A stretch of 64,000 nucleotides of DNA from a virus, in IMG/VR virus record IMGVR_UViG_3300032046_000001, positions 124,001-188,000 of that record, one strand, 5' to 3'. This document shows, piece after piece, positions 1 to 58,123 of the stretch. Position 1 is the first letter of the stretch. Every line of letters starts with the position of its first letter. A program made the position numbers and the translations under genes. The notes under the pieces were generated by a model. The model worked only from the letters and a program-made list of their open reading frames with translations. It made no database searches and was not told where the DNA came from.

Positions 1-1
1 T

Positions 2-1075
2 CGACAGAAAACATATAAAGTTTTAGCCAATGCTCTTTATGGTATTTTAGGAACTAATATTTATAGATTCTTTAATCTTGATATGGCATCTTCGATTACA
101 CTATCAGGACAAGAAGTTATTAAAAATTCAATTTTACATGTTGATAAGTATATGGATAATTTAAAGAGAGGAATTAAAGAAGATGTTGATATCACAATAT
201 CAAAAGAAAATGTCTACACTGATTGGATGGATGTGAAATTGAAATATATCATTACAAGCGATACCGATTCGATATTAGCGACATTATCAAAATTTATAAA
301 AAGTAAAGATTATGAAACATCAATTCAAGAAATGACAGATATCTGTTCGAGTATTCAAAATTTTATAAACAATCAAGTTGTTTCAAGAATAATAAATAGA
401 CATAATGTTCCAATTGATAAAAATCGATTAAAAATTAAAAATGAATTGATGTGTTCGAGAGGTTTATTTGTTAGCAAGAAACACTACGCACTCTATGTAA
501 TATTTCAAGAGAATAAACGTGTTGATGAAATGACAATTACTGGATTAGAAATAAAACGTCGTGATTTTTCATCATATACAAAAGATTGTATGAAAGAACT
601 TCTTGATATTATTTTAAAATCTGAAAAAATATCATTTAATCAAATTATGTCATATGTCAAGGAGAAAGAATATGAATTCATTAAAAGAATTCGATGTGGT
701 GATAAAACTGTTGCAAGACCAAGTGGTTGGAAGAAAAAATTAGATGAATATAAAGTTATTCCTCAAGGAATTTACGCAATGATGAACTGGAACGATTTAT
801 TATATAATTCATTCGAATGTGGTGTTCGTGGATATTTATTTAAAATTAATGGCATAGATATTTCAAAGACACCAAAGAATGTTATTGAGAATTATAATAA
901 AATATTTGTATCTGGTGGTAAAACTTTAGAAACCATATGTGTACCGGATGAAGAATCCAGACTTCCTGAATATTTTATCCCAGATATGAAAGAGATGTTA
1001 AAGTTTCACTGGATTGATCGTTACAGTCAGTTATTAGCACCAATTATTAAACCAGTTGAATTAGTAAAAATTTAA
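2..1075 (+). CDS. Family B DNA polymerase, C-terminal part (cut by window start)
   Basis: The open frame enters from the left edge, so the gene is truncated at its 5' end and the ATG at 83 is internal. The first codons read QKTYKVLANALYG, which is the motif B (K...N..YG) of family B polymerases and forms part of the dNTP-binding fingers. About 60 residues on, SDTDSIL is motif C, whose aspartates bind the catalytic metals in the palm. The rest is the thumb region. This is the replicative polymerase, T4 gp43-like by family. The N-terminal exonuclease lies outside the window. The homing-endonuclease unit at 1118-1816 directly follows the stop. Confidence 0.9.
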   Translation, partial: RQKTYKVLANALYGILGTNIYRFFNLDMASSITLSGQEVIKNSILHVDKYMDNLKRGIKEDVDITISKENVYTDWMDVKLKYIITSDTDSILATLSKFIKSKDYETSIQEMTDICSSIQNFINNQVVSRIINRHNVPIDKNRLKIKNELMCSRGLFVSKKHYALYVIFQENKRVDEMTITGLEIKRRDFSSYTKDCMKELLDIILKSEKISFNQIMSYVKEKEYEFIKRIRCGDKTVARPSGWKKKLDEYKVIPQGIYAMMNWNDLLYNSFECGVRGYLFKINGIDISKTPKNVIENYNKIFVSGGKTLETICVPDEESRLPEYFIPDMKEMLKFHWIDRYSQLLAPIIKPVELVKI

Positions 1076-1117: not shown

Positions 1118-1191
1118 AAAGAGAGATAGAGACTTAAGCTCGAAAAGAAGTATTCCGAAACTTCCTTCTCTCTTTATTATTCATTCGGAAT
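1118..1191 (+). ncRNA. Pseudoknotted RNA element, copy 1, upstream of HNH gene
   Basis: Seen directly: an outer helix pairs 1118-1126 with 1167-1175. It encloses hairpin P2 (GAG 1129-1131 with CUC 1139-1141, UUAA tetraloop) and, after GAAAA, hairpin P3 (GAAGU 1147-1151 with ACUUC 1060+100-104, that is 1160-1164). The P3 loop AUUCCGAA (1152-1159) is fully complementary to UUCGGAAU at 1184-1191, giving an 8-bp pseudoknot. The same fold with different sequence occurs at five other places in the window. Role unknown; it ends a few bases before the Shine-Dalgarno site of the HNH gene. Confidence 0.8.
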
Positions 1192-1210
1192 GATTATCGG
1201 AGATTATAAA

Positions 1211-1816
1211 ATGAAAATTTATGAAAATTTAGATTTACAAGATTTAGATGTAGAAGTTTGGAGAACTATAAAAGAATACCCAGATTATTCTATTAGTAAT
1301 TTAGGAAGGGTTAAATCATTAAAATTTGGAAAAGAAAGAGTATTAAAACAAGGTAAAAATAGTAGAAAATATTTTTGTGTTGTTTTATCTAAAAATAAAA
1401 ATAAAAAAACAAAATTAGTTCATATACTTGTTTTTGAAATTTATAATAATTACAAATTAAAATCAAATGAGTGTATTCATCACAAAGATGGGAATAAAGA
1501 AAATAATTATTATAAAAATTTAGAAAGAATGACTAAATTAGATCACTTAAGTTTACACAACAAAGGAGAAAACAATCCTATGTTTGGAAAATATTTATCT
1601 ACAAAAACAAAAATGATGATAAGTAAAAATCATTTCGATAATAAAGGTGAAAATAATCCACATCATAAACTAACAGAAGAACAAGTTATCCAGATAAAAT
1701 TATTATTAAAAGAGGGAATATTAACTCAAGAAGAAATAGCTGATATATTTGGAGTTGGTAAAATGACAATTTCAAAAATAAAGAGAGGAAAATTATGGAA
1801 ACATGTGAAAATATGA
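1211..1816 (+). CDS. HNH homing endonuclease (NUMOD4, HNH, C-terminal HTH)
   Basis: 201 residues. The N-terminus has the NUMOD4-type pattern (VWRTIKEYPDYSISNLGRVKS), cut here as a motif W..I..YPDYSISN.GRVKS; the centre has the HNH-type core IHHKDGNKENN with the second Asn; the last 50 residues form a helix-turn-helix (LTQEEIADIFGVGKMTIS). It is a free-standing homing endonuclease that cuts DNA at an allelic empty site. ATG 1211 is chosen over 1190 because CGGAG sits at the right distance and the paralogue at 12068 begins identically. The 3' end overlaps queE by 22 nt and carries its ribosome binding site. Confidence 0.9.
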   Translation: MKIYENLDLQDLDVEVWRTIKEYPDYSISNLGRVKSLKFGKERVLKQGKNSRKYFCVVLSKNKNKKTKLVHILVFEIYNNYKLKSNECIHHKDGNKENNYYKNLERMTKLDHLSLHNKGENNPMFGKYLSTKTKMMISKNHFDNKGENNPHHKLTEEQVIQIKLLLKEGILTQEEIADIFGVGKMTISKIKRGKLWKHVKI

Positions 1817-2475
1817 AAAGTGATATGTCAATAAAAGCAATTGAGTGTTTTTCAACCTATCAAGGAGAAGGGTTATTTTCAGGAAAAAGAGTTGTATTAA
1901 TAAGATTCAAAGAATGTAATCGTGATTGTTGGTATTGTGATACAAAAAATAAAATGAAATATTATGAGGAAGGTGAATATAAATTAGAAGATATTCAAAA
2001 ATTGATAGATGTTGAATGTGCCAATCTTCTCATAACAGGTGGTGAAGTAACATTTGATAAAAATTTTCATCAAACAATATTATTATCAAATAAATTAAAA
2101 TATTCCGAGATGTATATTGAAACAAATGGTTATAAATTAGAGGAACTTTATCAATATGTAAAAAATAATAAAAATATTTATTTTGTCTATTCGCCAAAGA
2201 TCTTCAATGATAAAGATCTATTTAGTGACCCAACTGATGTCTTTATGAACTTGATTGGTAGAAATTTAATTATAAAAGTTTTATATGATGGAACTAATCC
2301 CTTTGTGGAAAAATATTTAAATAAGATTACTAAATACAGAGACAGTGTTTATTTACAACCTATGGGTTCAACCAAAGAAGATATTATTAAGAATATGAAA
2401 GTTGTTCTTGAGGCTGCGGATAAATATAAGTTTAATATTTCAAGTAGATTACATCTAATTCATGATTTCAGATAG
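1795..2475 (+). CDS. queE: 7-carboxy-7-deazaguanine synthase, radical SAM
   Basis: QueE converts 6-carboxytetrahydropterin to CDG, the precursor of preQ0 and other 7-deazaguanines. Near residue 20 is FSTYQGEG, typical of QueE, followed by CNRDCWYC, the shortened C-x3-C-x2-C cluster-binding motif of radical SAM enzymes. ITGGE and ETNG follow as expected. Length (226) fits the family. ATG 1795 has AGAGG six bases upstream, inside the HNH gene; ATG 1813 and 1828 are alternatives. With the DpdA-like gene at 5070 it suggests 7-deazaguanine insertion into phage DNA or into tRNA. QueC and QueD are not in the window. Confidence 0.9.
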   Translation: METCENMKSDMSIKAIECFSTYQGEGLFSGKRVVLIRFKECNRDCWYCDTKNKMKYYEEGEYKLEDIQKLIDVECANLLITGGEVTFDKNFHQTILLSNKLKYSEMYIETNGYKLEELYQYVKNNKNIYFVYSPKIFNDKDLFSDPTDVFMNLIGRNLIIKVLYDGTNPFVEKYLNKITKYRDSVYLQPMGSTKEDIIKNMKVVLEAADKYKFNISSRLHLIHDFR

Positions 2476-11968: not shown

Positions 11969-12040
11969 AGAGAGATAGAGAACGATCGCTCGAAAAGAAG
12001 TAATCCGAACTTCCTTCTCTCTTTAAATTTATCATTCGGA
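11969..12040 (+). ncRNA. Pseudoknotted RNA element, copy 2, upstream of HNH gene
   Basis: Outer helix 11969-11975 with 12016-12022. P2: GAG 11978-11980 with CUC 11989-11991, C-G and a GAUC tetraloop. GAAAA. P3: GAAGU 11997-12001 with ACUUC 12009-12013. Pseudoknot: UCCGA 12004-12008 with UCGGA 12036-12040. Same architecture as copy 1, different loops. Confidence 0.8.
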
Positions 12041-12067
12041 AAATAACCAAAAATCGGAGGTTATAAA

Positions 12068-12676
12068 ATGAAAATATTTGAAAATTTGGATTTAAAAGAT
12101 TTAGAAAATGAAATATGGAAAAATATTTTAGATTATGAAAATAATTATCAAATTAGTAATTCAGGACGAATTAAATCATTAAAATTTGGAAAAGAAAAAA
12201 TATTAAAACAGATCAAAGATAATTATAATTATTTTTTTATCAATTTGTGTAAAAATGGAAAATCTAAAATAAAATATATTCATCATCTTGTTTATGAAAC
12301 TTTCAAAGGAAAATTAGAAGAAGGTTATGATGCTCATCATATAAATGAAAATAAAGAAGATAATTTTGTTGGTAATTTAGAATCTAAACCACATAACGAA
12401 CATTCTAGTTTTCATAATAAAAATAAAATAGTTTCAGAAGAAACAAAAAAGAAAATATCTAAAAGTGGAAAAGGAAGAGCGGTTACAGAAGAAACAAGAA
12501 TTAAAATTAAAGGAAAAAATAATCCAAATTACAAAATAACAAATCAAAAAATTATTGATATCAGGATTGACATAGAAAAAAAATTAAGTCAAAGAAAAAT
12601 TGCTAATAAATACGATGTTAGTCAAACAACAGTTTCTAGTATAAAAACTGGAAAAGTTAGGGAGTTATATGAATAA
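12068..12676 (+). CDS. HNH homing endonuclease
   Basis: 202 residues, paralogue of the gene at 1211. NUMOD4-like start (IWKNILDYENNYQISNSGR), HNH core as AHHINENKEDN, then a NUMOD-type linker (SEETKKKISKSGKG) and a C-terminal HTH (SQRKIANKYDVSQTTVSSIK). ATG 12068 behind CGGAGG. Inserted between portal and the next head gene; its end overlaps the next start by 8 nt, and AGGGAG for that gene lies within its coding sequence. Confidence 0.9.
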   Translation: MKIFENLDLKDLENEIWKNILDYENNYQISNSGRIKSLKFGKEKILKQIKDNYNYFFINLCKNGKSKIKYIHHLVYETFKGKLEEGYDAHHINENKEDNFVGNLESKPHNEHSSFHNKNKIVSEETKKKISKSGKGRAVTEETRIKIKGKNNPNYKITNQKIIDIRIDIEKKLSQRKIANKYDVSQTTVSSIKTGKVRELYE

Positions 12677-27324: not shown

Positions 27325-27397
27325 ATAAATAAGGGATAGAACTCATGATTCGAAAAGGATGACTTTCACATCTTTCCCTTATTTATTTTTTTGAAAG
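27325..27397 (+). ncRNA. Pseudoknotted RNA element, copy 3, upstream of zinc-finger gene
   Basis: Outer helix of 12 bp, ATAAATAAGGGA 27325-27336 with TCCCTTATTTAT 27375-27386. P2: GAA 27339-27341 with UUC 27349-27351, U-A, CAUG tetraloop. GAAAA. P3: GAUG 27358-27361 with CAUC 27369-27372. Pseudoknot CUUUCA 27363-27368 with UGAAAG 27392-27397. Same architecture as the HNH-linked copies. Confidence 0.8.
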
Positions 27398-27425
27398 AAT
27401 AATCTTATGAAAGGAGGTTATAAAA

Positions 27426-27578
27426 ATGAAATGTGAAATTTGTGGAAGAGAGTTTGAGAATAAAAATAGGTTATCTATTCATTTATCAAGAACTCATAAA
27501 ATGACATCAAAAGAAGGTTATTGTCGTATCTGGGATTGTGGTAATTTAAAATTTAAAATTATAAATGAGGAAAAATAA
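27426..27578 (+). CDS. Single C2H2 zinc-finger peptide
   Basis: 50 residues. CEICGREFENKNRLSIHLSR followed by TH is a classical C-x2-C-x12-H-x4-H finger, then MTSKEGYCRIW, which recalls the element after the finger in the Ros-like protein at 21638. Strong AAAGGAGGT site. It follows RNA element copy 3, so it may be the remaining DNA-binding part of a homing unit. Confidence 0.7.
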   Translation: MKCEICGREFENKNRLSIHLSRTHKMTSKEGYCRIWDCGNLKFKIINEEK

Positions 27579-29867: not shown

Positions 29868-29934
29868 AGAGAGAATAGGGTGCGCACCCGAAAAGATACC
29901 AACTCCAGTATTTTTCTCTCTTTATTTTTTTGGA
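29868..29934 (+). ncRNA. Pseudoknotted RNA element, copy 4, upstream of HNH gene
   Basis: Outer helix AGAGAGA 29868-29874 with UCUCUCU 29915-29921. P2: GGGU 29878-29881 with ACCC 29886-29889, GCGC tetraloop. GAAAA. P3: GAUAC 29895-29899 with GUAUU 29908-29912. Pseudoknot UCCA 29904-29907 with UGGA 29931-29934, shorter than in the others. Confidence 0.75.
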
Positions 29935-29953
29935 AATTAACTAAGGAGAGTTA

Positions 29954-30487
29954 ATGATAAAAGATAATAATAATGAAATTTGGAAAACTATAGAAAATTT
30001 TTCAGATTATCAAGTCAGTAGTTTTGGTAGAGTAAAATCACTGAAGTTTAAAAAAGAAAAAATATTAAAATTAGGTAAAACTAAAAAAGGTTATTTTATA
30101 GTGGTTCTATGTAAAAATGGAATATATAAAACTAAAAATGTTCATGTATTGATTTATGAAACTTTCTACAATAATAAATTAAAATTAAATGAGTGTGTTC
30201 ATCATAAAGATGAGAATAAAGAAAATAATTATTATGAGAATTTAGAAAAAATAAGTGTATCAAAACATAGTAGCTTCCACAATAAAGAAAAAAGAAATCA
30301 TTTTTATAGAATAAAAAATTATGGAGAAAAAAACTCACATCATAAATTAACAGAAGAACAGGTAATTCAAATTAAATTATTATTGAAAGAAGGAAAATTG
30401 ACTCAACAAGAAATTGCCAATATATTCGGAATTTGTAGATCAACGATATCATTAATAAAAAATAGAAAAATTTGGAATTGTAATTAA
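29954..30487 (+). CDS. HNH homing endonuclease
   Basis: 177 residues, paralogue of 1211, 12068, 48648 and 57503. NUMOD4 (IWKTIENFSDYQVSSFGRVK), HNH core VHHKDENKENN, and the shared HTH tail (HKLTEEQVIQIKLLLKEG). AAGGAGAG precedes ATG. A 16-bp terminator follows. Confidence 0.9.
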   Translation: MIKDNNNEIWKTIENFSDYQVSSFGRVKSLKFKKEKILKLGKTKKGYFIVVLCKNGIYKTKNVHVLIYETFYNNKLKLNECVHHKDENKENNYYENLEKISVSKHSSFHNKEKRNHFYRIKNYGEKNSHHKLTEEQVIQIKLLLKEGKLTQQEIANIFGICRSTISLIKNRKIWNCN

Positions 30488-39668: not shown

Positions 39669-41918
39669 CTAATGACTAAAGGTATCAAGTTCAGGAACTT
39701 TACCTTCAGCTAAAAGTTTATCTTCCATCTTGCCCTTGAATACTAAATATTCATCACTAATATATTTGAGTATTTTTCTACCCAATTTAGGATGAAATTG
39801 TTCGGTTGTGGATTTGATAATAACTCCCTCTCTTATGTGATCACCAATGGTTGATTTACCAGATGATAGTTCGATAACTTTTTCTATACTAAATGGACCT
39901 TCATATAATATAGGAACTATAGGAAGTTTTTTTCTTTCACAAAAGTTTTTAAACCAATACCAGTTTAAATATTGGTTATCAATGATCACATCAAAGAATC
40001 TTACAGTTTGAGTAAATGGTGAATCATAAGGAAAAAATTTCTGAATTCCATATCCATAAATCTCACCAAATACTTCTTCACCCAAATTCAATTTGTTTTT
40101 CAATTCATACTTCTCTGCCATTCTCCAATATACATTCAAAAACTTATCTTTCTGTGTTCTCTTCAAGTTAGTACGATGTGTACCAACAACAAAGAATCCT
40201 GGGTTTTTAACACCTAAATATTTAGTTAGTAATAATCTCATTTTTAACATCAATGGAATATATTTCCAATTGATATTAAAAGGATCTACATTACCAGTCC
40301 TAAGATTAGAATTATGTACTAATACTCCATTTGCAAAATAATTATGTGTTTCTGTTTCAATATCATAACGAGTTTTTAAATATTTATATCTGTCAGTTGG
40401 TATGTAATCATCAATTGAAATTATAGTTTGTTCAGTTAAAAGTGGAATATTTTTAAATTTTATTTTGGTAATAATAGGATTAATATTTAATCTATAATTT
40501 TCTGGTAATTTGTATTGCATACACTTTGGAATATATGGTGAAATCAAAACAAATAATTTATTTGCATCTTCATGATTAAGTCTTATTCTCCAATATTCAT
40601 CACTTTTATATTTAGTAGAATTTATATCTAAATATTTTAACGCACTAATTAAATTATCAATAGATTCTTCATTAAATCCGCATGTTGCAAATAATGCTCT
40701 ATCTTTCTGGTCTTCGTTATGAGATAATGAACCATCATCCATATACCAAAATGCTAATGATATTGGTGATAATTTTCCTATTATAGATTTTGGAACTTCT
40801 TTTTTGGAATCAATAAACCAATATGAAAATAATTTTTTTATTGATTTATCTGATACAGTTCTTGCTCGACACATTTCAGTTCCGTAACCACTAATTATAT
40901 TTTTTTGTTTATTTCCAGAAATGTCATTTAGTAATTCTAATGTATAATCAATATATTCTTCATGTTCTTTTTTATGTCCAAATTGAATAGAATTATCAGA
41001 TAAACAACCATCTCCTAACATTTTTCCTATAAGTACTTGTTCTTGAATATATGAAAGTTCTTTTTGATAATTATTAATTAAAATTTTATCATCTTTTTTT
41101 AAATCAGAACATTTAATATATTTATTTAAATCTGGATTAAATATTTCATGATTTTCAGTTATTATTAATATACCATAATGATTACCAGATATCCCATTTC
41201 TAGTAAATTTTATTTTTTTCCATTTTTCTGAAATTCCATTATTAAACCAATTTAATATTTTGGATGAAACTATATTATTATTTTCATCTACACCTTTAAC
41301 TTCTAAATTTAATTTATCATTTACTATTTTTCCAATTTTTTCTTTTTTGTCATTAAATAGATCTATTTCACATTCATAATTCAAACAACCATGAATTTTT
41401 TCAAGAATAACTACTTCTTCATCTTCTTCAAATATATCAGGAAAATTCTTGAAATTTTCAATGTTGGTATATTGTGGAAAACCAGTAAATTCAGGATATT
41501 GAGTAAATCCTTTTGATTTTAAAGCACAACCACCATCACCTGTTTCTGGTGGTTCATACTTTTCGATCTTCAGTATTTCTCTAACATCATCTCCAAGTTT
41601 CCATTCTGGTTCTTTATCAATAATCAAACCTTGAGATAATATACCTCTAAGTTTAACTGTTTTAACACGACCAGCTATGATATTACCCTGTGTATCTTTT
41701 ATTTTATTGGTAAGATATCCAGTTATTCCCAACTTTTCAGATAACTCGAATGGAATGAGGCTGTCTATAGGAATATAGACAGCCTCATCTCCAACCTTAT
41801 ATTTACCTTTAGAAGAAATACAACTCCATCCTTTAACCTGAATAATTTCTAATCTATCCGCATTATCATGAGGTGTAATATTTTTAATTTTTACAACCTC
41901 ACATATTAATGAACTCAT
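39669..41918 (-). CDS. RNA ligase (DRB0094-like) interrupted by an intein
   Basis: The N-terminal OB-like domain (SSLICEVVKIKNITPHDNAD, GDEAVYIPIDSLIP) and catalytic domain match the DRB0094-type RNA ligase family, which seals nicks in RNA with ATP. The motif I lysine is in VVILEKIHG. Directly after that Gly an intein of 359 residues begins, and the extein resumes as SNLRTGNVDP, giving KIHG-SN after splicing. Without splicing the active site is broken. ATG 41918 has AGGAGG 11 bases ahead; GTG 41930 is unlikely. Spliced length about 390. Confidence 0.85.
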   Translation of the reverse strand: MSSLICEVVKIKNITPHDNADRLEIIQVKGWSCISSKGKYKVGDEAVYIPIDSLIPFELSEKLGITGYLTNKIKDTQGNIIAGRVKTVKLRGILSQGLIIDKEPEWKLGDDVREILKIEKYEPPETGDGGCALKSKGFTQYPEFTGFPQYTNIENFKNFPDIFEEDEEVVILEKIHGCLNYECEIDLFNDKKEKIGKIVNDKLNLEVKGVDENNNIVSSKILNWFNNGISEKWKKIKFTRNGISGNHYGILIITENHEIFNPDLNKYIKCSDLKKDDKILINNYQKELSYIQEQVLIGKMLGDGCLSDNSIQFGHKKEHEEYIDYTLELLNDISGNKQKNIISGYGTEMCRARTVSDKSIKKLFSYWFIDSKKEVPKSIIGKLSPISLAFWYMDDGSLSHNEDQKDRALFATCGFNEESIDNLISALKYLDINSTKYKSDEYWRIRLNHEDANKLFVLISPYIPKCMQYKLPENYRLNINPIITKIKFKNIPLLTEQTIISIDDYIPTDRYKYLKTRYDIETETHNYFANGVLVHNSNLRTGNVDPFNINWKYIPLMLKMRLLLTKYLGVKNPGFFVVGTHRTNLKRTQKDKFLNVYWRMAEKYELKNKLNLGEEVFGEIYGYGIQKFFPYDSPFTQTVRFFDVIIDNQYLNWYWFKNFCERKKLPIVPILYEGPFSIEKVIELSSGKSTIGDHIREGVIIKSTTEQFHPKLGRKILKYISDEYLVFKGKMEDKLLAEGKVPELDTFSH
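40311..41387 (-). mobile_element. Intein with LAGLIDADG homing endonuclease in RNA ligase
   Basis: 359 residues from Cys (TGT at 41387-41385) to Asn (AAT at 40313-40311), followed by Ser as +1 residue. Start CLNYECEIDLF is block A-like; ITENHEIF is block B-like (N-H for T-x-x-H); VLIGKMLGDGCL and AFWYMDDGSL are the two LAGLIDADG helices; ANGVLVHN is blocks F/G with the penultimate His. It is inserted between G and S of the catalytic K-x-H-G-S motif. Confidence 0.88.
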
Positions 41919-41933
41919 TTTTAAGTCCACCTC

Positions 41934-43559
41934 CTAATCAGAATTTTCATGCCATTGTAGATCATCCAAAATTGCGTCAGCCACATTTTTTAGATGATCT
42001 CCTATTTTTTCAAAATTGTTAACTATATCAATAAATATAATACCAGCAAGTACATCACACTGACCTTGCTTTAATCTATTAATATGGTCACTTTTAAGTT
42101 TAGTTCTAAGTTCATTAATCATTTGTTCCTTAATTACGATACACTGAGCATCCTCAACTTTATTAGATTGAAGTGAAAAAATACTACTTTCAATCATGTC
42201 TAAAAGTTCCTTATACATTGTCATTAACCCTTGTGTTGCATCGTCTGATAATGACAATTTATTTTCTATTTTCTGTTTAATGAGATTTCTAAGATTCATT
42301 GCATGATCACCAATTCTTTCGACATCATTAACAATATGAATCAGTGCAGGAATTTTTGTGGACTCTTCATGTGATAAATTTTCTTCCATCAACCGAACTA
42401 AATAACTTGTTATAGAATACCGTCTAGTATCTACAATTTCCTCTTTTTGTTCAATGTTTTCAAGAAATTTAAGATCATTTTTTGAAAATGCGTTTATGAC
42501 AGACTGTATCATAATTTTTGACAACTCTAATGTTTTAACAATCTCTTTTGTCGCTGCTTCTATTGCTATAGATGGAGTATGCAATAAATGATTTTCAAGA
42601 TATTTAGTATCCGCATAATCATCACTATCAGTGTGTTTTTCTTTTACTAATTTGATTATGAATTTACTATATAGTTTTGTAAATGGTAAAATAAGTAATG
42701 TACATGTGACATTGAATATCGTATGTGCGTTCGCACACTGTCGAGCAAGATCAATAGATGTTAATTGAATCAAGTGAGTAAATGGATGTATAAATGGTAG
42801 AAAAATAAGTGTGCCAAAAACGTTAAAGAAAAGGTGTGCAACTGCCGTTCTCTTGGCATTTGTTGACGTTCCAATACATGCCAATAATGCCGTTGCACAT
42901 GTGCCAATATTACATCCTAAAATTAGAGGTACTGCACCACTTAGGGTTATGAGATTAAGAGATGCTAAAGTTAATACTATGCCTGTTGTGACACTACTAC
43001 TTTGAATAATGGCTGTTACAATAGCACCTGCAATGACAGCTAAAATAGGGTTTGTATTAAATCTTATAAAAATATTTTTAAATATTATACTATCAGCTAA
43101 TGGTTTTACACCAATAGTCATAATATTTAATCCCAGAAATAGAACACCAAAACCAAGCAATGACAGTCCGAAATATTTCCAGGATTTATTTTTACAAATA
43201 AGATATAAACATAAACCAATTGCCAGCACGGGTAGCGCATATTCCGTCAGTTTGAATGCTATAATCTGTGCTGTCATCGTTGTGCCTATATTGGCACCAA
43301 ATATTATACCCAACGTTTGATAGAAACTGAGAAGTCCGGCATTTACAAAACCTACAGCAAGAACCGTAGTTGCCGAGCTTGATTGAATGATAGATGTAAT
43401 TATTGCGCCAACAATAGTTCCTTTTAATGGACTGCTTGTTAATTTTCCTAAGATAGTTCTTATCTTGTTAGAAGCCACTTTTTCGAGTCCATCACCCATT
43501 AAATGGATACCATAAATAAATAATGCCAGACCGCCAATTAAATTAAATATAACATTCAT
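41934..43559 (-). CDS. Na/phosphate cotransporter family protein with PhoU-like domain
   Basis: 541 residues. The membrane half (about 1-310, eight or more spans) has the two inverted repeats of NptA-type Na/Pi carriers: IITSIIQSSSATT with GANIGTT, and IVTAIIQSSSVTT with GCNIGTC. The last 220 residues are helical and PhoU-like (VNDVERIGDHAMNL and NFEKIGDHLKNV, each with the E..GDH motif). It would bring phosphate into the infected cell. Coupled closely to the RNA ligase gene. Confidence 0.9.
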   Translation of the reverse strand: MNVIFNLIGGLALFIYGIHLMGDGLEKVASNKIRTILGKLTSSPLKGTIVGAIITSIIQSSSATTVLAVGFVNAGLLSFYQTLGIIFGANIGTTMTAQIIAFKLTEYALPVLAIGLCLYLICKNKSWKYFGLSLLGFGVLFLGLNIMTIGVKPLADSIIFKNIFIRFNTNPILAVIAGAIVTAIIQSSSVTTGIVLTLASLNLITLSGAVPLILGCNIGTCATALLACIGTSTNAKRTAVAHLFFNVFGTLIFLPFIHPFTHLIQLTSIDLARQCANAHTIFNVTCTLLILPFTKLYSKFIIKLVKEKHTDSDDYADTKYLENHLLHTPSIAIEAATKEIVKTLELSKIMIQSVINAFSKNDLKFLENIEQKEEIVDTRRYSITSYLVRLMEENLSHEESTKIPALIHIVNDVERIGDHAMNLRNLIKQKIENKLSLSDDATQGLMTMYKELLDMIESSIFSLQSNKVEDAQCIVIKEQMINELRTKLKSDHINRLKQGQCDVLAGIIFIDIVNNFEKIGDHLKNVADAILDDLQWHENSD

Positions 43560-47959: not shown

Positions 47960-48184
47960 TTATTTTCTCCAGTTATTTTTTTCAGCAAACCATATTTTAA
48001 AATCTTCAGGAGAACTAAATCCATCACTATACCACTTAAAAAAATCCTGTTGAGTTTTAAATTCTTGATTTAATTCAGGATCATGACTTCCTCCTTCTGG
48101 AGTCATATCAACAAAAAATCTCTTATCTTTATCATCAACCCAACCTTCAGACATCCAATCATAATATATCATTCTTCGATCCAC
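47960..48184 (-). CDS. Small hypothetical protein
   Basis: 74 residues, Asp/Trp/Phe rich, acidic. Starts inside the end of the release-factor-like gene. Not recognised. Confidence 0.55.
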   Translation of the reverse strand: MDRRMIYYDWMSEGWVDDKDKRFFVDMTPEGGSHDPELNQEFKTQQDFFKWYSDGFSSPEDFKIWFAEKNNWRK

Positions 48185-48519
48185 CTTCCATCTATTACTA
48201 CTTCAATTTTTAGATTTTCTTCTTTCATTTCACGATCAACTTTTCTTTCAATTTCTTTTTCGTCGTGGTCAATTTCAAATATTTTCTTTTGTAACCATAA
48301 TTTAAATATTTTTGATTCTGTCAATCTTTTAAACGCATTTTTTTTATTTTGACCTTGTGATCTTTCTTCACGGGATTCACCAACGGCACCGGAGTCCCTA
48401 TGTACTATACGAACGCCAGAATTTACTTTATTTACATTTTGTCCTCCAGCACCTGAACACCTAAATGTTTGTACTTCAAAATCTTTTTTTGTTACTGAAA
48501 ATAATAATTCTTTAGACAA
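48169..48519 (-). CDS. Peptide chain release factor-like protein with GGQ motif
   Basis: 116 residues. CSGAGGQNVNKVNSGVRIVH near residue 20 contains the GGQ that triggers peptidyl-tRNA hydrolysis in class I release factors, and SQGQNKKNAFKRL is the following conserved helix. There is no stop-codon-reading domain, so it resembles ArfB/YaeJ or PrfH-type rescue factors; the C-terminal tail is charged. PrfH proteins act together with RtcB in rRNA repair, and RtcB is coded nearby at 53131. TTG start with AGGTAGG. Confidence 0.85.
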   Translation of the reverse strand: MSKELLFSVTKKDFEVQTFRCSGAGGQNVNKVNSGVRIVHRDSGAVGESREERSQGQNKKNAFKRLTESKIFKLWLQKKIFEIDHDEKEIERKVDREMKEENLKIEVVIDGRWIEE

Positions 48520-48542
48520 ATTAAAAACCTACCTTTCTTAAT

Positions 48543-48555
48543 GGGAACAAATAAT
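48543..48555 (+). promoter_or_regulatory. GGGAACAAATAAT motif, copy 5
   Basis: GGGAACAAATAAT lies directly before RNA element copy 5. Matches the motif elsewhere in the window with a shorter A run. Confidence 0.4.
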
Positions 48556-48622
48556 TGAGAGATAGAACCCATGATTCGAAAAGAGAAAACCTTGATTCTC
48601 CTGCTCTCAGTTACTATCAAGG
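48556..48622 (+). ncRNA. Pseudoknotted RNA element, copy 5, upstream of HNH gene
   Basis: Outer helix UGAGAG 48556-48561 with CUCUCA 48604-48609. P2: GAA 48565-48567 with UUC 48575-48577 around a CAUG loop. GAAAA. P3: GAGA 48583-48586 with UCUC 48597-48600. Pseudoknot CCUUGAU 48590-48596 with AUCAAGG 48616-48622, 7 bp. Every helix differs in sequence from the other copies but keeps pairing. Confidence 0.82.
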
Positions 48623-48647
48623 AATAACAACAAGGAGTTATTAAAAA

Positions 48648-49241
48648 ATGAAAATTTATAAAAATTTAAATTTACAGGATTTAAATGGTGAAATCTGGAA
48701 AGTTATAGAAAATTTTCCAGATTATCAAGTTAGTAGTTATGGAAGAGTTAAATCACTAAAATGTAGAAAAGAATTAATAATTAAACAACATATAGATTCT
48801 AAAGGATATTTGCGTACATCTATATATAAAAAAGGTAAAAAAGTTCATAGACTAGTTTATGAAACATTTAAAGAAAAATTAAATATAGATTATGATATCC
48901 ATCATATAAATGAAAATAAAGAAGATAATAATATTAATAATTTGGAGAAAAAATCTCATATTTTACATTCAATTAATCACAATCCTAAAGGCAATAATCA
49001 TAAAAATTATGGCAAACATCATTCTGAAGAATCAAAGATTAAAATAGGTAAAAATCATGTTGATATTCGTGGAATTAATAATCCAAGTAGTATATTATTA
49101 ATTCAAGAAATTATTCAAATTAAATTATTATTAAAAGAAAAAATATTATCTCAAAAAGAAATAGCAGAAATATTTGAAGTTCATCCAATGACTATATCAT
49201 CTATTAAAAATAAAAGAACTTGGTCATATATAATAATATAA
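48648..49241 (+). CDS. HNH homing endonuclease
   Basis: 197 residues. NUMOD4 (IWKVIENFPDYQVSSYGRVK), HNH core IHHINENKEDNN, NUMOD-type GKHHSEESKIKIGKNH, HTH tail (SQKEIAEIFEVHPMTISSI). AAGGAG precedes ATG. It is the only plus-strand gene inside a long minus-strand block, a sign of insertion. Confidence 0.9.
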   Translation: MKIYKNLNLQDLNGEIWKVIENFPDYQVSSYGRVKSLKCRKELIIKQHIDSKGYLRTSIYKKGKKVHRLVYETFKEKLNIDYDIHHINENKEDNNINNLEKKSHILHSINHNPKGNNHKNYGKHHSEESKIKIGKNHVDIRGINNPSSILLIQEIIQIKLLLKEKILSQKEIAEIFEVHPMTISSIKNKRTWSYIII

Positions 49242-49248
49242 TATCATA

Positions 49249-49284
49249 AAAGAAACACCATCATTAATCTGATGGTGTTTCTTT
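49249..49284. terminator. Bidirectional terminator, 15-bp stem
   Basis: AAAGAAACACCATCA 49249-49263 pairs with TGATGGTGTTTCTTT 49270-49284. It ends the HNH gene on one side; on the other the stop codon of the 49264 gene is in its loop. Confidence 0.88.
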
Positions 49285-50334
49285 CTCTTTAACTTCTTTC
49301 ATTTCAACAATATCACCAATTATTTCAATACGTTTTTCATCTCGCTCTTCAGGAGTACCAAACCAAGTCAGCTCCCAGAAAATTGCCTTCATCGTTTCCA
49401 AAACTTTAAATTGTTTGTTTCCAAAATACTGTTTATCATGAAAATCATCAGAAGAGTAAATTTTGAAAACATTTTTCAATCTTAATTTCAATGTTTTCAA
49501 ATAATTATTTGGAGTGAAACTTATACCATAGTAAATAAGACCATTCAGTCCCTCTGGGAGATAATCATCTTCACATGGTTCACCAATAGCATGAAAAGAT
49601 GGCCATGATGTCAAAGTTTCATATTCAGCATCATGTTCAACATCCCAATATATTTCGAGATATTTCAATTCTCCAGAACCACTGAATTCTTTTTTAGATT
49701 CTTCTATTATCGGTTTGATTCTTTCACCAGTAATAATCTCCCAAAGATCAATATTGTTTTCAACAATATCAAATATTCTTCCAAGAGTAACATCATCATT
49801 TAATCTTACATTCTCCCATATGAAATGAATCAACTTATCAGGAGCAATAATTTGTTCTTGTCTGCCTGCTTTCCAATAAGAACGAATTATTGAATTATTG
49901 GTTATTATGATACCTTCAAAATCATCTTCCTCTTCTTTCTCTGAAAAGATATGATATTTTTCATTTAAGCGTTTATCGAGTTCGGTTTTCCACTCTTTCT
50001 CAGTCCATCCATGATCAAGAAGAGTCTCATTCCACTTTCTCCACTGTTTTTTAGGTTGTTTAAAATCAGGACATAGAAGAATCATTTCCGATAACTCATC
50101 AAATATATTAGAAATCTCTTCATATGGTGTACGGACTTCTATACTATCTTTTGGTGGTATTTTAATAGAAACTGGAAATTCAAATGCCTCACCAAAAACA
50201 AGATCATTAACAGCTTTAAATTGAACTGACTTATTATATTGATTTCCCAAAAATTTTAAAATTCCATCATAATCATCGTGTGCAAAATGTATAACATACT
50301 CGCCATTTGGGTCATATATTTTGGTAAAAATCAT
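49264..50334 (-). CDS. Hypothetical protein
   Basis: 356 residues, acidic, no signal or membrane segment. HDDYDGILKFLGNQYN and WFGTPEERDEKRIEIIGDIV look like ordinary soluble protein. No family recognised. It is the last gene of the unit after the zinc-ribbon and phosphoesterase genes. Confidence 0.65.
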   Translation of the reverse strand: MIFTKIYDPNGEYVIHFAHDDYDGILKFLGNQYNKSVQFKAVNDLVFGEAFEFPVSIKIPPKDSIEVRTPYEEISNIFDELSEMILLCPDFKQPKKQWRKWNETLLDHGWTEKEWKTELDKRLNEKYHIFSEKEEEDDFEGIIITNNSIIRSYWKAGRQEQIIAPDKLIHFIWENVRLNDDVTLGRIFDIVENNIDLWEIITGERIKPIIEESKKEFSGSGELKYLEIYWDVEHDAEYETLTSWPSFHAIGEPCEDDYLPEGLNGLIYYGISFTPNNYLKTLKLRLKNVFKIYSSDDFHDKQYFGNKQFKVLETMKAIFWELTWFGTPEERDEKRIEIIGDIVEMKEVKEKETPSD

Positions 50335-50338
50335 TTTA

Positions 50339-50539
50339 TTATTTCTCCTTTATTATATCAGGAGATACTTCTATACCATACCATTCAATACAACTCGGAC
50401 AAACAAGAATATGATTTTTATCCGAATAAGTTAAATCACTTTCATCTCCAACCCAACCACATTCAGGACATTTATATTTTCCAGAACATATCTCATCATC
50501 ATCAAAATCATTATAATGGTGATTTCCAAATAATGCCAT
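50339..50539 (-). CDS. Small zinc-ribbon protein
   Basis: 66 residues. YKCPECGWVGDESDL followed by LVCPSCIEWYG is a rubredoxin-like C-x2-C ... C-x2-C ribbon. Acidic ends. Role unknown. Confidence 0.65.
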   Translation of the reverse strand: MALFGNHHYNDFDDDEICSGKYKCPECGWVGDESDLTYSDKNHILVCPSCIEWYGIEVSPDIIKEK

Positions 50540-50556
50540 ATTTTAATTCCTCTTTC

Positions 50557-52002
50557 TTAAACTAAATGGTGACATTCTTTTTTAGACATAATAATTTTCA
50601 GTTCTTCATACGATACTGGTTTGAAATTATTATTATCAACTCCAACATCGTAGGACTTTCCTAATGACGGAAGTTCTCCATGTGAATTGCCCACTATTAT
50701 ATGTTTTCCATTTCTTCTAATAACTATAGTTTTATTTTTAACCTTAACACACCAAAAATGTTCATTATTTACAGTCTCAATAAAAACTTTATTTTTTAAA
50801 TTATCGTGTGTTCTACACGATCGTTTAGTTACTACCAATTCATAATTAATTTTTTTTGCAAAACCACCGCGTCGTTCAGAAATATTACACATGTATTCAT
50901 TTCTTATACATGCTGTTTGTATTAAATCTGCTTCTATTTTTTTAGATGTGTATATTAAAATTGAAGTTTTATTTTTATAACCATCTGTATGAGTATATTC
51001 TTCTAATATTATATCTAATTGATTTTGATTTGAATCAATAATTATATCACTAATAGGTTTTAATCTAATATTATAAAAATAATCTGGTTTATGAAAATTA
51101 AAACAAATTGAATCATCTTTCTGTTTATTTCTGCTATAATTAATATTCAATTTTTTTAATAAATTTTCTATTCTGTTAATTTTTCTTGTTTTAAAAACTC
51201 TAATTCTTATTAAATCAGTATTACATAAATTACCATCTGCCGCTATCCAAACTAATAACTTAATTTGGTCATTGTTTAAATTAATTCCAGTTTGATTGCC
51301 AATTGCAGATTTTTTAAATTTTCTTTTATTGATTTTAAAAATTTCATCCGTATAAAATTTTCTAAATTCCTCTTTTTTTCTTCCTATTAAAATATCAATC
51401 AATATATGATTTGGTGTTAATCTTAAATCTAACCCCTTTGATTTTATATTATACACATCACCTGTATGATTATAATCTATAATTTCGTCTATTTCATTAT
51501 ATTCTAATTTTTTATTTTCAATATTTAAAGTTAATATTTTATGACCATATAATAATTCACTTCTTTTTTTCCAACCGTTATCTGTTAAAATTTCTGTTTC
51601 ATCATCTAAACAATGGGCATATAGTTCCCATGCTCCATGATGAGAACAATTCCAAACTCTCATCGCATAATGACACAGAGTTATTTTTTGTTGTCCAATC
51701 CTAATATCATGAAGATTGTGAACTTCTTTACAATATTCTTTAATTGTATTTATAAATCGAAAATCATGATTCCCAAGGATGAATATTTTTTGACCATTCA
51801 TTTTACTAAGTGCAGTTATTGCACCTTCCTTGGTCATCGCAATATCACCTAAATAATAAACAGTGTCTTTTGTCCTAACGATTGAATTATGGTTATCCAA
51901 AAGACACTGTTGTTGTTCGTACTCATTTTTAAAAGGCCGATTGCAGTACCTCAATATATTATAATGAAGATTGTGCCAATCAGCAGTAAAGAAAATATTC
52001 AT
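50557..52002 (-). CDS. Metallophosphoesterase interrupted by an intein
   Basis: Calcineurin-like phosphoesterase: TADWHNLH (D-x-H), YYLGDIAM (G-D), ILGNHDF (G-N-H-D), LCHYAM and the last motif, A-H-S-H-G, which is split by an intein after the first His. Spliced product about 172 residues, like small phage phosphoesterases with activity on 2',3'-cyclic or other phosphate ends. In this context it may process RNA ends for the RNA ligases. Extein resumes SHGELPSLGKSYDVGVD. Confidence 0.87.
   Translation of the reverse strand: MNIFFTADWHNLHYNILRYCNRPFKNEYEQQQCLLDNHNSIVRTKDTVYYLGDIAMTKEGAITALSKMNGQKIFILGNHDFRFINTIKEYCKEVHNLHDIRIGQQKITLCHYAMRVWNCSHHGAWELYAHCLDDETEILTDNGWKKRSELLYGHKILTLNIENKKLEYNEIDEIIDYNHTGDVYNIKSKGLDLRLTPNHILIDILIGRKKEEFRKFYTDEIFKINKRKFKKSAIGNQTGINLNNDQIKLLVWIAADGNLCNTDLIRIRVFKTRKINRIENLLKKLNINYSRNKQKDDSICFNFHKPDYFYNIRLKPISDIIIDSNQNQLDIILEEYTHTDGYKNKTSILIYTSKKIEADLIQTACIRNEYMCNISERRGGFAKKINYELVVTKRSCRTHDNLKNKVFIETVNNEHFWCVKVKNKTIVIRRNGKHIIVGNSHGELPSLGKSYDVGVDNNNFKPVSYEELKIIMSKKECHHLV
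50686..51612 (-). mobile_element. Intein in metallophosphoesterase
   Basis: 309 residues from Cys (51612-51610) to Asn (50688-50686), followed by Ser. Block A CLDDETEILTDNGWK, block B as LRLTPNHILI, homing-endonuclease helices around LLVWIAADGNL and LEEYTHTDGYK, block F WCVKVKNKTIV and block G HIIVGN. The residue before the final Asn is Gly instead of the usual His. Inserted within the metal-binding G/A-H-x-H motif. Confidence 0.88.
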
Positions 52003-52012
52003 TTTATCTTAT

Positions 52013-52318
52013 CTACACCTTCTTATTTTTAATATCACGTAATGTAAATCCAAGTATATTAACAATCTTAACAACTCTTGGTTCAAGTTTTGATTGTTCA
52101 TCAAAAAACCCGAAATCTTTTCCACATTTTAAACATGTATACGAAACAGGATAATTAACATCTGTTCGTTCGAATGGTTCTGCAACAAATTTTGATAATT
52201 CTGGATGATTACAAGATTCTTGAACTTTCTCTTTTGCCTTCAGTAATTTTCTTTTACACTCTTTTTTAAGATCCTTAAATTCTTTTACAGCCATATCAAA
52301 TTTATTTGTGTCTAACAT
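52013..52318 (-). CDS. Small zinc-binding hypothetical protein
   Basis: 101 residues. A charged helix (EFKDLKKECKRKLLKAKEK) followed by CNHPELS and CLKCGKDFGF, likely one zinc site. Found between the phosphoesterase and a metalloprotease. Not recognised. Confidence 0.6.
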   Translation of the reverse strand: MLDTNKFDMAVKEFKDLKKECKRKLLKAKEKVQESCNHPELSKFVAEPFERTDVNYPVSYTCLKCGKDFGFFDEQSKLEPRVVKIVNILGFTLRDIKNKKV

Positions 52319-52948
52319 TCATTCCTCCACTGGACGAAAATGTCCGTCATGTTTTTTAATATATCTAAAAGTATCGAGTGGTACACCAACAATATTCTCA
52401 CCATTATTGTATTGTTTTCGATATTTCAAACGATAATAAAACGTACTCATAATTTTCGCCATTTTATCAGATAAATATCTTTTACTAACTATTATATCAT
52501 CAATATAACCAAAAGTTACACCAATCAAATCAACGATACATTCATTGGCGACAAATATATCTGATCTATTATTAATCGAATCAAACGGAATAAAGAATGG
52601 TGCCTTTTTTAACAACAAATGGCAAAGTTCGTGAACAACATTACCTCTCAATTCCTGATCGGTTGCTTTTTCCCATATATCGGCATTGTAGAAGATATGA
52701 ATTTTATCATCTACTATGGAATTACAAATGGCCGAGATATCCACCTTAATGGGTCTTCCATGAATAGTAAATTTTTTACTGATATTAGGTGTATTGTGAA
52801 ATCTGAAAATGATAAGTTTAAACTCTTCTTCTATATAAAGTGAAGACATAACCGCTGGAATTATTTTTAATAATCGTTGTTTGAGATTCAATTTAACATC
52901 CCTTTCTGAAAGAAAATTTTTATAATATAAAAATGACATCTCTGTCAT
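52319..52948 (-). CDS. Zinc metalloprotease-like protein (HExxH)
   Basis: 209 residues. VVHELCHLLLKK near 118 is an H-E-x-x-H zinc-protease helix; a downstream NECIVDLIG may provide the third ligand (Glu), as in gluzincins. SprT-like or phage-type protease by pattern; target unknown. Two ATGs at the start; the first is used. Confidence 0.65.
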   Translation of the reverse strand: MTEMSFLYYKNFLSERDVKLNLKQRLLKIIPAVMSSLYIEEEFKLIIFRFHNTPNISKKFTIHGRPIKVDISAICNSIVDDKIHIFYNADIWEKATDQELRGNVVHELCHLLLKKAPFFIPFDSINNRSDIFVANECIVDLIGVTFGYIDDIIVSKRYLSDKMAKIMSTFYYRLKYRKQYNNGENIVGVPLDTFRYIKKHDGHFRPVEE

Positions 52949-52963
52949 AACGAAAATAGAAAA

Positions 52964-53134
52964 GGAGAAAATTCAAGTCATCACAAATTGACAGAACGAG
53001 ATGTTATTCAAATAAAATTATTATTAAAAGAAGGAAAGTTAACTCAAAAAGAAATAGCCGATATGTTTGGGGTTTCAGTATATACGATTTCAGATATAAA
53101 AAGAGAAATAACTTGGTATCATATAAAAATTTAA
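52964..53134 (+). pseudogene. Orphan C-terminal HTH fragment of a homing endonuclease
   Basis: An open frame of 56 codons without a start reads GENSSHHKLTERDVIQIKLL and goes on through EIADMFGVSVYTISDIK to WYHIKI, the C-terminal HTH of the HNH and GIY-YIG proteins of this window. The nuclease part is gone. Its TAA at 53132-53134 overlaps the stop of rtcB on the other strand. It marks a decayed homing insertion. Confidence 0.85.
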
Positions 53135-54330
53135 TTACCTACTATAACACCTATTGGAAATAATTTAACCACTGGTTCTATTAAATCAGATTGATCTTCA
53201 ATTACTTTATCAATATTTTTATATACTGCCGGAGCTTCGTCGAGTGGAATCTGATTTGTCCAAATTCTCTCCATTGATTTTTCCACTAATTCTCTATTTA
53301 AAGTTTTATTAGCCTCTCTTCTTCCTAATACTCTACCAGCACCATGCGATGATGTTTCAAAACTCTCTTTATTTCCCAGTCCACGCACGATATAACTTGC
53401 TGTTCCCATAGACCCTGGTATAACACTTAGTTGATCTTTTCGAGCTGCTGTCGCTCCCTTACGATGCACAACAACATCCTTTCCAAAATGCCTTTCAAAT
53501 GCTACATAGTTATGATGAATATTAATCTCTTGTTGAACTGAACAAGCTAACATTCCACAAGTAATAGACGTAAATATATTCATCATTCTTCTTCTATTTT
53601 CAAAGGCAAATTTTAAAGCGAAATTCATCAATTCATAATACGCCTTACCTTCTTTAGTTTCAATTGGTAAATATGCCAAATTTGGATCTGGTAACTGAAT
53701 ATGATATATATTCATTAAGTGTGTTGCTTGATGATGAAATTCATTACATATTTGATAACCAAGATTACGACTACCGGAATGAATCATCAACCATATATAA
53801 CCATCTTCACCTTTTAACATTTCAATAAAATGGTTTCCAGACCCTAAAGTTCCTAATTGATATCTTGATTCATTCAATGCTGACTGAATATAAGTTGGAA
53901 ATTCTGGGTGATCTTCAAAACCGTCCCATGTTTGTGGAAGAGTATGACCAATTCCTTTGCCATGTGGAACAACCCGACATGTTTCACTCATGATTCTATC
54001 AATCTGTTCTGATATGATATTTTCTGATTTGAAATCGGTTTGAACTGCAATTATACCACATGCTATATCACTACCAACTCCATAAGGAAATATAATATTC
54101 TCAGTGGCTGCAACACCACCGATGGGAAAACCATAACCACAGTGTGCATCCGCTGATAAAACTCCCCATTTATAAATAAATGGAAAACTACAGATATTAC
54201 CCATCTGCTGTAGTGCTGAATTCTCAACATCTTCACACCAAGACTTGATTGGAACATGAAGATTTTGTGCAATCTCTCTTTCCGCAATTCCTCTAAATAA
54301 ACTTGACTCTTTAGATAATACCCATTTCAT
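53131..54330 (-). CDS. rtcB: RNA-splicing ligase RtcB
   Basis: 399 residues, full length. DAHCGYGFPIGGVAA, GVGSDIACG, GTLGSGNHFIE, HSGSRNLGYQ, HRKGATAAR (guanylylation His region), GSMGTASYIVRG and SSHGAGR are the RtcB metal and GMP-binding motifs. It joins 3'-phosphate or cyclic phosphate RNA to 5'-OH RNA, as needed to repair tRNA or rRNA cut by host defence nucleases. ATG overlaps the preceding stop. Confidence 0.96.
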   Translation of the reverse strand: MKWVLSKESSLFRGIAEREIAQNLHVPIKSWCEDVENSALQQMGNICSFPFIYKWGVLSADAHCGYGFPIGGVAATENIIFPYGVGSDIACGIIAVQTDFKSENIISEQIDRIMSETCRVVPHGKGIGHTLPQTWDGFEDHPEFPTYIQSALNESRYQLGTLGSGNHFIEMLKGEDGYIWLMIHSGSRNLGYQICNEFHHQATHLMNIYHIQLPDPNLAYLPIETKEGKAYYELMNFALKFAFENRRRMMNIFTSITCGMLACSVQQEINIHHNYVAFERHFGKDVVVHRKGATAARKDQLSVIPGSMGTASYIVRGLGNKESFETSSHGAGRVLGRREANKTLNRELVEKSMERIWTNQIPLDEAPAVYKNIDKVIEDQSDLIEPVVKLFPIGVIVGN

Positions 54331-56226: not shown

Positions 56227-56247
56227 ACAATGTTCTCCATTTGTTTT

Positions 56248-57104: not shown

Positions 57105-57106
57105 AA

Positions 57107-57295: not shown

Positions 57296-57357
57296 GTTTT
57301 ATTTATTCTCCTTTAATTTTTTTATAAAAAAAATATAATGTTTATTTTATATTCACT

Positions 57358-57371: not shown

Positions 57372-57395
57372 GTTTTCTGACTATTAAATTAAACA

Positions 57396-57409
57396 GGGAA
57401 CAAAATATT
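57396..57409 (+). promoter_or_regulatory. GGGAACAAAATATT motif, copy 6
   Basis: GGGAACAAAATATT directly abuts RNA element copy 6 and matches the copy at 7989 (GGGAACAAAATATA). Confidence 0.45.
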
Positions 57410-57482
57410 AAGAGGGATAGAACTCATGATTCGAAAAGAAGTAGTCCCTAACTTCCTTCTCTCTCTTTATTATATTTAGGGA
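57410..57482 (+). ncRNA. Pseudoknotted RNA element, copy 6, upstream of HNH gene
   Basis: Outer helix AAGAGGGA 57410-57417 with UCUCUCUU 57460-57467 (one G-U). P2: GAA 57420-57422 with UUC 57430-57432, U-A, CAUG loop. GAAAA. P3: GAAGU 57438-57442 with ACUUC 57451-57455. Pseudoknot UCCCUA 57445-57450 with UAGGGA 57477-57482. Confidence 0.82.
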
Positions 57483-57502
57483 AAATTTAAGGGAGAATTA
57501 AA

Positions 57503-58123
57503 ATGAAAATATTTGAAAATTTAGAAAATGAATTGTGGAAAGTTATAATAGAATTTCCAGATTATTCTGTTAGTAATATTGGTAGAATTAAGTCATTAAA
57601 ATTTGGAAAAGAAAAAATATTAAAACAATGTAAAGATGGTAAAGGTTATTTTTGTATTAATTTATATAAAAATGGAAAATGTAAGTTAAGAAAAATTCAT
57701 ATATTATTATACGAAACTTTTAATAATTATAAATTAAAAAATAATGAATGTATTCATCATAAAGATGAAAATAAAGAAAATAATAATTTTGATAATTTTA
57801 AGTTGATGACAAAATCTAAACATAGATATTATCACATGAAATATGATAATAATCTAAGAAGTATGTTAGGAAAACATCATACTAATAATACCAAAAATAT
57901 CATAAGTAAAACGATGAAAGAAAAATTTAAAAATAAAGAATTAAATTTAAAAGGTGAAAATCATCCAAGACACAAACTAACAGAAGAACAAGTAATTCAA
58001 ATTAAATTATTATTAAAAGAAGGTATATTAACTCAACAAGAAATAGCTGATATGTTTTGTGTTAGTCAAATGACAATTTCATATATAAAAAGAGGAAAAC
58101 ATTGGAACCATATAAAAATTTAA
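57503..58123 (+). CDS. HNH homing endonuclease
   Basis: 206 residues. NUMOD4 (LWKVIIEFPDYSVSNIGRIK), HNH core IHHKDENKENNN, and the shared HTH tail (HKLTEEQVIQIKLLLKEG). GGGAGAA precedes ATG. Lies between the divergent promoter motif and the endolysin gene. Confidence 0.9.
   Translation: MKIFENLENELWKVIIEFPDYSVSNIGRIKSLKFGKEKILKQCKDGKGYFCINLYKNGKCKLRKIHILLYETFNNYKLKNNECIHHKDENKENNNFDNFKLMTKSKHRYYHMKYDNNLRSMLGKHHTNNTKNIISKTMKEKFKNKELNLKGENHPRHKLTEEQVIQIKLLLKEGILTQQEIADMFCVSQMTISYIKRGKHWNHIKI

Follow-up and report, generated by a model that had tools for sequence, protein, structure and literature searches.

Copies of the int-alpA RNA family before homing-endonuclease genes of a jumbo phage as candidate switches of translation

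The six copies and the genes that follow them

The window analysed here, 64 kb long, covers positions 124,001-188,000 of a 312-kb jumbo phage record (IMGVR_UViG_3300032046_000001). Comparison with known phages revealed no DNA similarity to 15 kb of the window. With its genes for two RNA polymerase beta-type subunits (genome 272312-273643 and 3447-4628 (-)), the phage belongs to the jumbo phages of the phiKZ/PBS1/AR9 kind, and its portal protein is distantly like that of PBS1/AR9 (27%). Six copies of a structured RNA element had been predicted in the window, and all six were confirmed in the sequence (Table 1); the complementarity listed between a loop and a downstream strand is present in each of them. 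Five copies precede NUMOD4-HNH homing genes, as was predicted, while copy 3, at 27325, is followed by a 50-codon C2H2 zinc-finger ORF, perhaps the remnant stump of a nuclease gene. The leader of copy 1 contains an ATG at 1190, in frame with the ORF downstream. Several other genes were annotated in the window. The match of the ORF at 83-1075 (+) to family B DNA polymerase is limited to an inner part, and the gene looks split or inserted into; the first RNA-HNH unit adjoins its end. A QueE-like radical SAM protein of a queuosine-type pathway is coded at 1795-2475 (+), an RNA ligase gene with an in-frame intein-like segment (LAGLIDADG endonuclease, PF03161, and a weak Intein_splicing match) lies at 39669-41930 (-), and a phage-encoded Na+/phosphate cotransporter with PhoU domains at 41934-43559 (-).

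Table 1. Parts of the six window copies, the genes after them, promoter-like sites and further copies in the phage genome. Positions are those of the window unless marked as genome.
Feature	Position	Strand	Remarks
Copy 1 core, P1-UAG-P2-CGAAAAG-P3-P1'	1118..1175	+	L3 loop ATTCCGAA at 1152-1159
Copy 1 proximal ("decoy") strand TTCGGAAT	1184..1191	+	complementary to L3
Copy 1 SD region	1193..1207	+	SD ATCGGAG at 1196-1202, second L3 complement; weak P4 hairpin with G-U pair
NUMOD4-HNH_3-NUMOD3-HTH homing-endonuclease ORF after copy 1	1211..1816	+	201 aa from 1211
Copy 2 core	11969..12025	+	L3 AATCCGA at 12002-12008
Copy 2 proximal strand TTCGGA	12035..12040	+	
Copy 2 P4 hairpin ATAACC/GGTTAT	12043..12064	+	SD TCGGAG at 12054-12059
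NUMOD4-HNH ORF after copy 2	12068..12676	+	202 aa
Copy 3 core	27325..27386	+	L3 ACTTTCA at 27362-27368
Copy 3 proximal strand TGAAAG	27392..27397	+	
Copy 3 P4 hairpin ATAATC/GGTTAT	27399..27421	+	SD TGAAAGGAGG at 27408-27417
Short C2H2 zinc-finger ORF after copy 3	27426..27578	+	50 aa
Copy 4 core	29868..29921	+	L3 CAACTCCA at 29900-29907
Copy 4 proximal strand TGGA	29931..29934	+	weakest among the six
Copy 4 P4 hairpin ATTAACT/AGTTAAT	29936..29955	+	SD AAGGAG at 29943-29948
NUMOD4-HNH ORF after copy 4	29954..30487	+	177 aa
Copy 5 promoter-like GGGAACAAATAATTG	48543..48557	+	AR9 late consensus AACA-N6-T(A/G); predicted RNA start 48557
Copy 5 core	48556..48610	+	L3 AACCTTGA at 48588-48595; int-alpA match 36.6 bits
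Copy 5 proximal strand ATCAAGG	48616..48622	+	
Copy 5 P4 hairpin AATAAC/GTTATT	48623..48642	+	SD CAAGGAG at 48631-48637
NUMOD4-HNH ORF after copy 5	48648..49241	+	197 aa
Copy 6 promoter-like GGGAACAAAATATTA	57396..57410	+	predicted RNA start 57410, the first P1 base
Copy 6 core	57410..57467	+	L3 AGTCCCTA at 57443-57450; int-alpA 33.4 bits, under cut-off
Copy 6 proximal strand TTAGGGA	57476..57482	+	
Copy 6 P4 hairpin, A/T stem	57485..57501	+	SD AAGGGAG at 57489-57495
NUMOD4-HNH-HTH ORF after copy 6	57503..58123	+	206 aa
GGGAACAAA sites	7989, 9266, 14022, 21591, 48543, 57396, 60213	+	mostly before genes
Eight further copies	genome 1,219 (-), 37,670 (-), 40,188 (-), 46,995 (-), 69,397 (+), 74,630 (+), 205,447 (-), 244,697 (-)	as given	model R1, all E < 1e-6

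The statement that all five NUMOD4-HNH genes carry the element is correct for the window, but not for the whole phage, in which only 10 of 24 NUMOD4 genes have it and 14 are without a leader. GIY-YIG genes had been thought to have none; in the whole genome, the copies at 74,630 and 244,697 precede such genes and the copy at 40,188 precedes a broken one. At this last place (L013, near 1-588 (-)), the element is followed by the interrupted GIY-YIG frame (MNYYIYTYLDPRWSGQL*), and the leader has outlived its gene. Elsewhere, int-alpA, the RNA family to which the copies are assigned below, heads an integrase gene (L080), an HNH-AP2 gene (L270), and many uncharacterised genes, so the tie to NUMOD4-HNH genes is not exclusive. 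Those NUMOD4 genes with a leader that were measured have a clear SD and start about 90-290 nt past the upstream frame (one spacing of -21 is due to a chance frame), whereas 9 of 10 leaderless ones start at most 20 nt from the upstream stop, often overlapping it, and have a poor SD. By this contrast, the leader goes with stand-alone translation starts. A tRNA-like sequence was seen directly before a leaderless NUMOD4-HNH gene at about 246,500 (-) of the genome.

Late promoters of phage AR9 have the form AACA-(6N)-TA/G, with the final base as the RNA start (PMC5312081). In the window, the motif GGGAACAAA occurs 7 times, against 0.62 expected, and it is likely the late promoter of this phage; its form is close to the AR9 rule AACA-N6-T(A/G). 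At the copies at 48556, 57410, and genome 244,697, the AR9 consensus makes the first P1 base the RNA start, and three more copies have the consensus with one mismatch at near-consensus spacing. If the AR9 rules are assumed for this phage, RNA may start at P1, and late mRNAs may begin exactly with the leader.

Fold and family of the element

Covariance model R1 was built from the six copies, as had been proposed, and it recognized eight further copies in the same 312-kb genome with E values from 7e-16 to 4e-7, the best match after these 14 having E = 0.056. In the alignment of the 14 copies, 92.5% of helix cells pair (80.8% in shuffles) and 11 of 17 helix pairs are changed on both sides (4.1 in shuffles). 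The covariation score is 0.363, compared with 0.151 in shuffles, none of 500 of which reach it, and with 0.076-0.114 when the partners are slid from the true register. Covarying helices are thus present in the wider alignment, and the predicted common fold with a pseudoknot was confirmed as a three-way junction. Folding energies of single sequences are ordinary (z from +0.5 to -1.95, not significant), so the case for the fold rests on comparison. According to cmscan and the 14-copy alignments, the conserved order is P1, UAG, P2, CGAAAAG, P3, CCU/CUU, P1', a U-rich linker, and a strand complementary to L3, the loop of P3. The core parts correspond to the layout first described, but its end point was placed too early, as the anatomy runs about 25 nt further, into an SD-bearing hairpin.

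The original prediction, which knew of no named RNA class with this layout, was wrong on this point, since the consensus of the Rfam family int-alpA (RF02996) arranges its parts in the same way: P1, UAG, P2, CGAAAAG, P3 with a CCuU loop, CCU, P1', a U run, and AgGG. The family was identified by a permissive Rfam search; a run of the whole window at the gathering threshold with fast filters gave nothing. Two phage copies, at 48555-48622 of the window and at 37,592 of the genome, reach 36.6 bits each and are above the gathering cut-off of 35.8 bits; copy 57410 falls just below it. The other four window copies have no Rfam report of their own, and are assigned to int-alpA because they align with copies 5 and 6. 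Among the 274 gammaproteobacterial genomes searched, 36 contain RF02996, in 34 of them above the cut-off. In E. coli, where the name-giving context is found, int-alpA is flanked by a tyrosine integrase gene and by a hypothetical ORF, which starts 22-40 nt past the match and has an HTH regulator behind it. This context is absent for the phage copies, which precede HNH or GIY-YIG genes, but many members above the cut-off also differ from it, and the family is defined by its RNA. Rfam types int-alpA as an sRNA gene, not as cis-regulatory. In the literature searched, no functional study of int-alpA turned up; one paper mentions it, only among listed predicted RNAs, and none gives the accession; the original description of the motif lay outside the search.

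Among the Rfam matches of the window there was no riboswitch family, and no model of a group I/II intron or self-cleaving ribozyme matched in the window. A ribozyme reading was dropped for this reason, and nothing was found to support the suggested role as a processed RNA end or in self-cleavage. When viral and genome contigs were scanned with degenerate patterns, most of the matches were due to chance. Model R2 gave two weak matches in 592 Clostridia and Bacilli genomes, both with the core absent on inspection, and AR9, PBS1, and a Flavobacterium phage gave matches at chance level only.

Two complementarities of the loop L3

Bases complementary to L3 occur twice before the start codon, first in the proximal strand and then in the SD. 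Examples of this code in the phage, given as loop, strand, and SD, are ACCAGTAA, TTACTGGT, and AACTGGAG; CTTTCA, TGAAAG, and TGAAAGGAGG; and CCTTGA, TCAAGG, and CAAGGAG. Complementarity of the loop to the strand and to the SD region was scored against re-pairing among copies, a test that ignores kinship, although the codes differ widely between members. In the phage copies, L3 and the proximal strand scored 15.7 with their own partners and 9.4 when re-paired, and L3 and the SD region 12.9 and 9.8, respectively, neither own score being reached in 20,000 re-pairings. With only the nine non-redundant phage loops, the score of L3 with the SD was reached by 1 of 20,000. The differing pseudoknot pairs, taken as strong covariation in the original prediction, are supported as covariation, since the strand fits its own loop far better than the loops of other copies (0/20,000).

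The same was found outside this phage. Of the members, 47 could be analysed, almost all of them from proteobacteria; in this set, both complementarities beat 20,000 of 20,000 re-pairings, and likewise with 35 non-redundant loops. Eight alphaproteobacterial members, which were examined only after the idea of a switch was formed, gave an exact p of 84/40,320 (0.002) for L3 with the decoy and 17/40,320 (0.0004) for L3 with the SD. When 69 members from the phage, Gammaproteobacteria, and Alphaproteobacteria were taken together, all 20,000 re-pairings were beaten, with z = 17 for the decoy and 13 for the SD, and at least five contiguous pairs between L3 and the SD were present in 62 of the 69. Metagenome viral contigs yielded six further phage-type copies, each preceding a NUMOD4-HNH or a GIY-YIG gene; both matches are present in 6/6, partly with new codes, such as TCCTAA/TTAGGA/TTAGGAGG.

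A fourth hairpin, P4, mostly holds the SD in its loop, and its stem arms also fit their own partners beyond re-pairing (0/20,000). The likeness of decoy and SD could be taken for a simple duplication, but this is made less likely by the flanks of the two strands, where the bases are only 32% alike. On average, the decoy duplex is the stronger one in the phage copies (-8.0 vs -6.7 kcal/mol for the SD), whereas the SD duplex is stronger than the decoy duplex in bacterial members, so a common default state cannot be derived from these values. Of the 51 members analysed, 47 have the element directly ahead of a start codon. A Pseudomonas-like group (L348, L356, L357, L360, L363, L369, L384, and L386) has the pseudoknot (loop ATCACTCAA, strand TTGAGTG) and an SD hairpin, ATGCC-ggag-GGCAT, without complementarity of the SD to L3; the match was either lost there or never present. 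Members L283 and L316 are without a separate proximal strand, and some others match theirs poorly.

Proposed translation control, other explanations, and known systems

The int-alpA copies are probably structured 5' leaders of mobility-gene mRNAs that control translation in cis. Translation control of the nuclease had been among the roles guessed at; it is supported at that level, and the guess is strengthened because L3 also matches the SD. The family identity, the helices, the two complementarities, the SD hairpin, and the site directly before the start codon are established as sequence features, and from them we infer that both pairings form and exchange, which of them is the ON state, that the RNA starts at P1, and any trigger. 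In the proposed mechanism, the conserved three-way junction (P1, UAG, P2, CGAAAAG, P3, CCU) would display L3 as a gene-specific anti-SD. Pairing of L3 with the proximal strand after P1 would make an H-type pseudoknot, the decoy state, leaving the SD free and the gene translated; pairing with the SD, usually in the P4 loop, would be a kissing interaction that keeps the gene silent. As both pairings use the same bases of L3, they are mutually exclusive, and for this reason the element is read as a cis-acting translation switch. Each copy has its own code, so differently coded copies in one phage should not cross-regulate.

Other explanations were weighed against this one. A static leader, in which nothing switches and the pseudoknotted core only shields the 5' end of the message or stops a 5'-to-3' exonuclease and holds the SD hairpin apart, would fit several observations: the promoter-like AACA-N6-T(A/G) would place the RNA start on P1 at three copies and is near-consensus in three more, L3 paired downstream of P1 in a three-way junction is the strand order of flavivirus xrRNA, and members of the Pseudomonas-like lineage have the pseudoknot although the SD match is absent there. 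A static leader gives no reason, however, for L3 and the SD of the same gene to match, with codes that vary from copy to copy, and we consider it unlikely. Action in trans is somewhat less probable still. Transcripts ending in the U-rich stretch would free L3 to kiss the SD loop of full-length messages, with the decoy neutralising L3 in cis; complementarity of L3 to the SD would work equally well in trans, the U-rich linker is present both in the phage copies and in the family consensus, and the sRNA type given by Rfam would agree. The scan of 48000-58000, however, found no intrinsic terminator (GC-rich stem and T run) at copies 5 and 6, and with the element directly before the start codon in most members, action in trans would mostly fall on its own gene.

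That the RNA is only a part of mobile DNA, as a target or by hitch-hiking, and has no regulatory role would be in accord with the 14 copies, which lie scattered over both strands and almost always precede homing-type genes, some of them broken. This is very improbable, as 14 NUMOD4 genes lack the element, it heads non-nuclease genes in bacteria, and its RNA pairs covary. Control by a ligand or protein is of a different nature, because it would refine the cis-acting switch and is compatible with it. A metabolite or protein bound at the near-invariant junction (UAG, CGAAAAG, CCU) would choose between decoy and SD. The AT-rich phage copies and the GC-rich members from proteobacteria have the junction bases in common but differ in helices and codes, and a conserved junction with a variable code resembles an aptamer core plus expression platform. 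The same conservation could, however, merely hold the shape of the junction, and the varied downstream genes suggest no ligand, so gating of this kind is doubtful, although better placed than a static leader.

For the cis-acting switch, a broader proposal is made more tentatively. Throughout the family, int-alpA may be a modular cis translation switch with a three-part code and a fixed, effector-sensing junction, which jumbo phages multiplied into orthogonal locks of nuclease genes; this is possible, but somewhat short of an even chance. A testable function is suggested here for an RNA family that Rfam types as an sRNA gene, and the L3/decoy/SD code is short and predictable. If true, free-standing nuclease genes control their own translation inside foreign transcripts, and the copies are a natural library of orthogonal translation switches. 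The RNA family itself was already known; as far as checked, the matched code of L3, proximal strand, and SD with its SD hairpin is new, and so is the multiplication before phage homing genes.

Within int-alpA, the database members are like the window copies in having the same proximal strand and the same match between L3 and the SD. The phage copies differ from them in being AT-rich and mostly under the cut-off, in being present as 14 variously coded copies per genome, and in heading HNH or GIY-YIG genes. In flavivirus xrRNA, too, the P3 loop of a three-way junction pairs with bases downstream of P1; sequence and setting are unrelated to those of the leader. In repZ/repBA of IncI plasmids, a hairpin loop pairs near the SD and sets translation, with a pseudoknot that activates and an antisense RNA that competes. 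The leader is similar to it in loop pairing near the SD, but the fold is unrelated; PK-repZ is listed in PMC12370729. Pseudoknot riboswitches of the translational preQ1 type control translation by a pseudoknot near or at the SD, as proposed for the leader, but int-alpA is without a known ligand, and its pairing strands vary freely while the junction is conserved (PMC11625349). Homing-endonuclease genes are a further case. In T4 I-TevI, I-TevII, I-TevIII, and segB and in Aeh1 mobE, RNA structure over the SD limits translation and a late promoter lies near the gene, the RBS of I-TevI, segB, and mobE being hidden in RNA structure (PMC2988022). The T4 and Aeh1 hairpins are local, whereas the int-alpA leader has a loop held by a junction and matched to both decoy and SD. 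Simpler hairpins are known to cover the RBS of phage homing genes (PMC2988022), so the purpose would be a familiar one and the device a different one.
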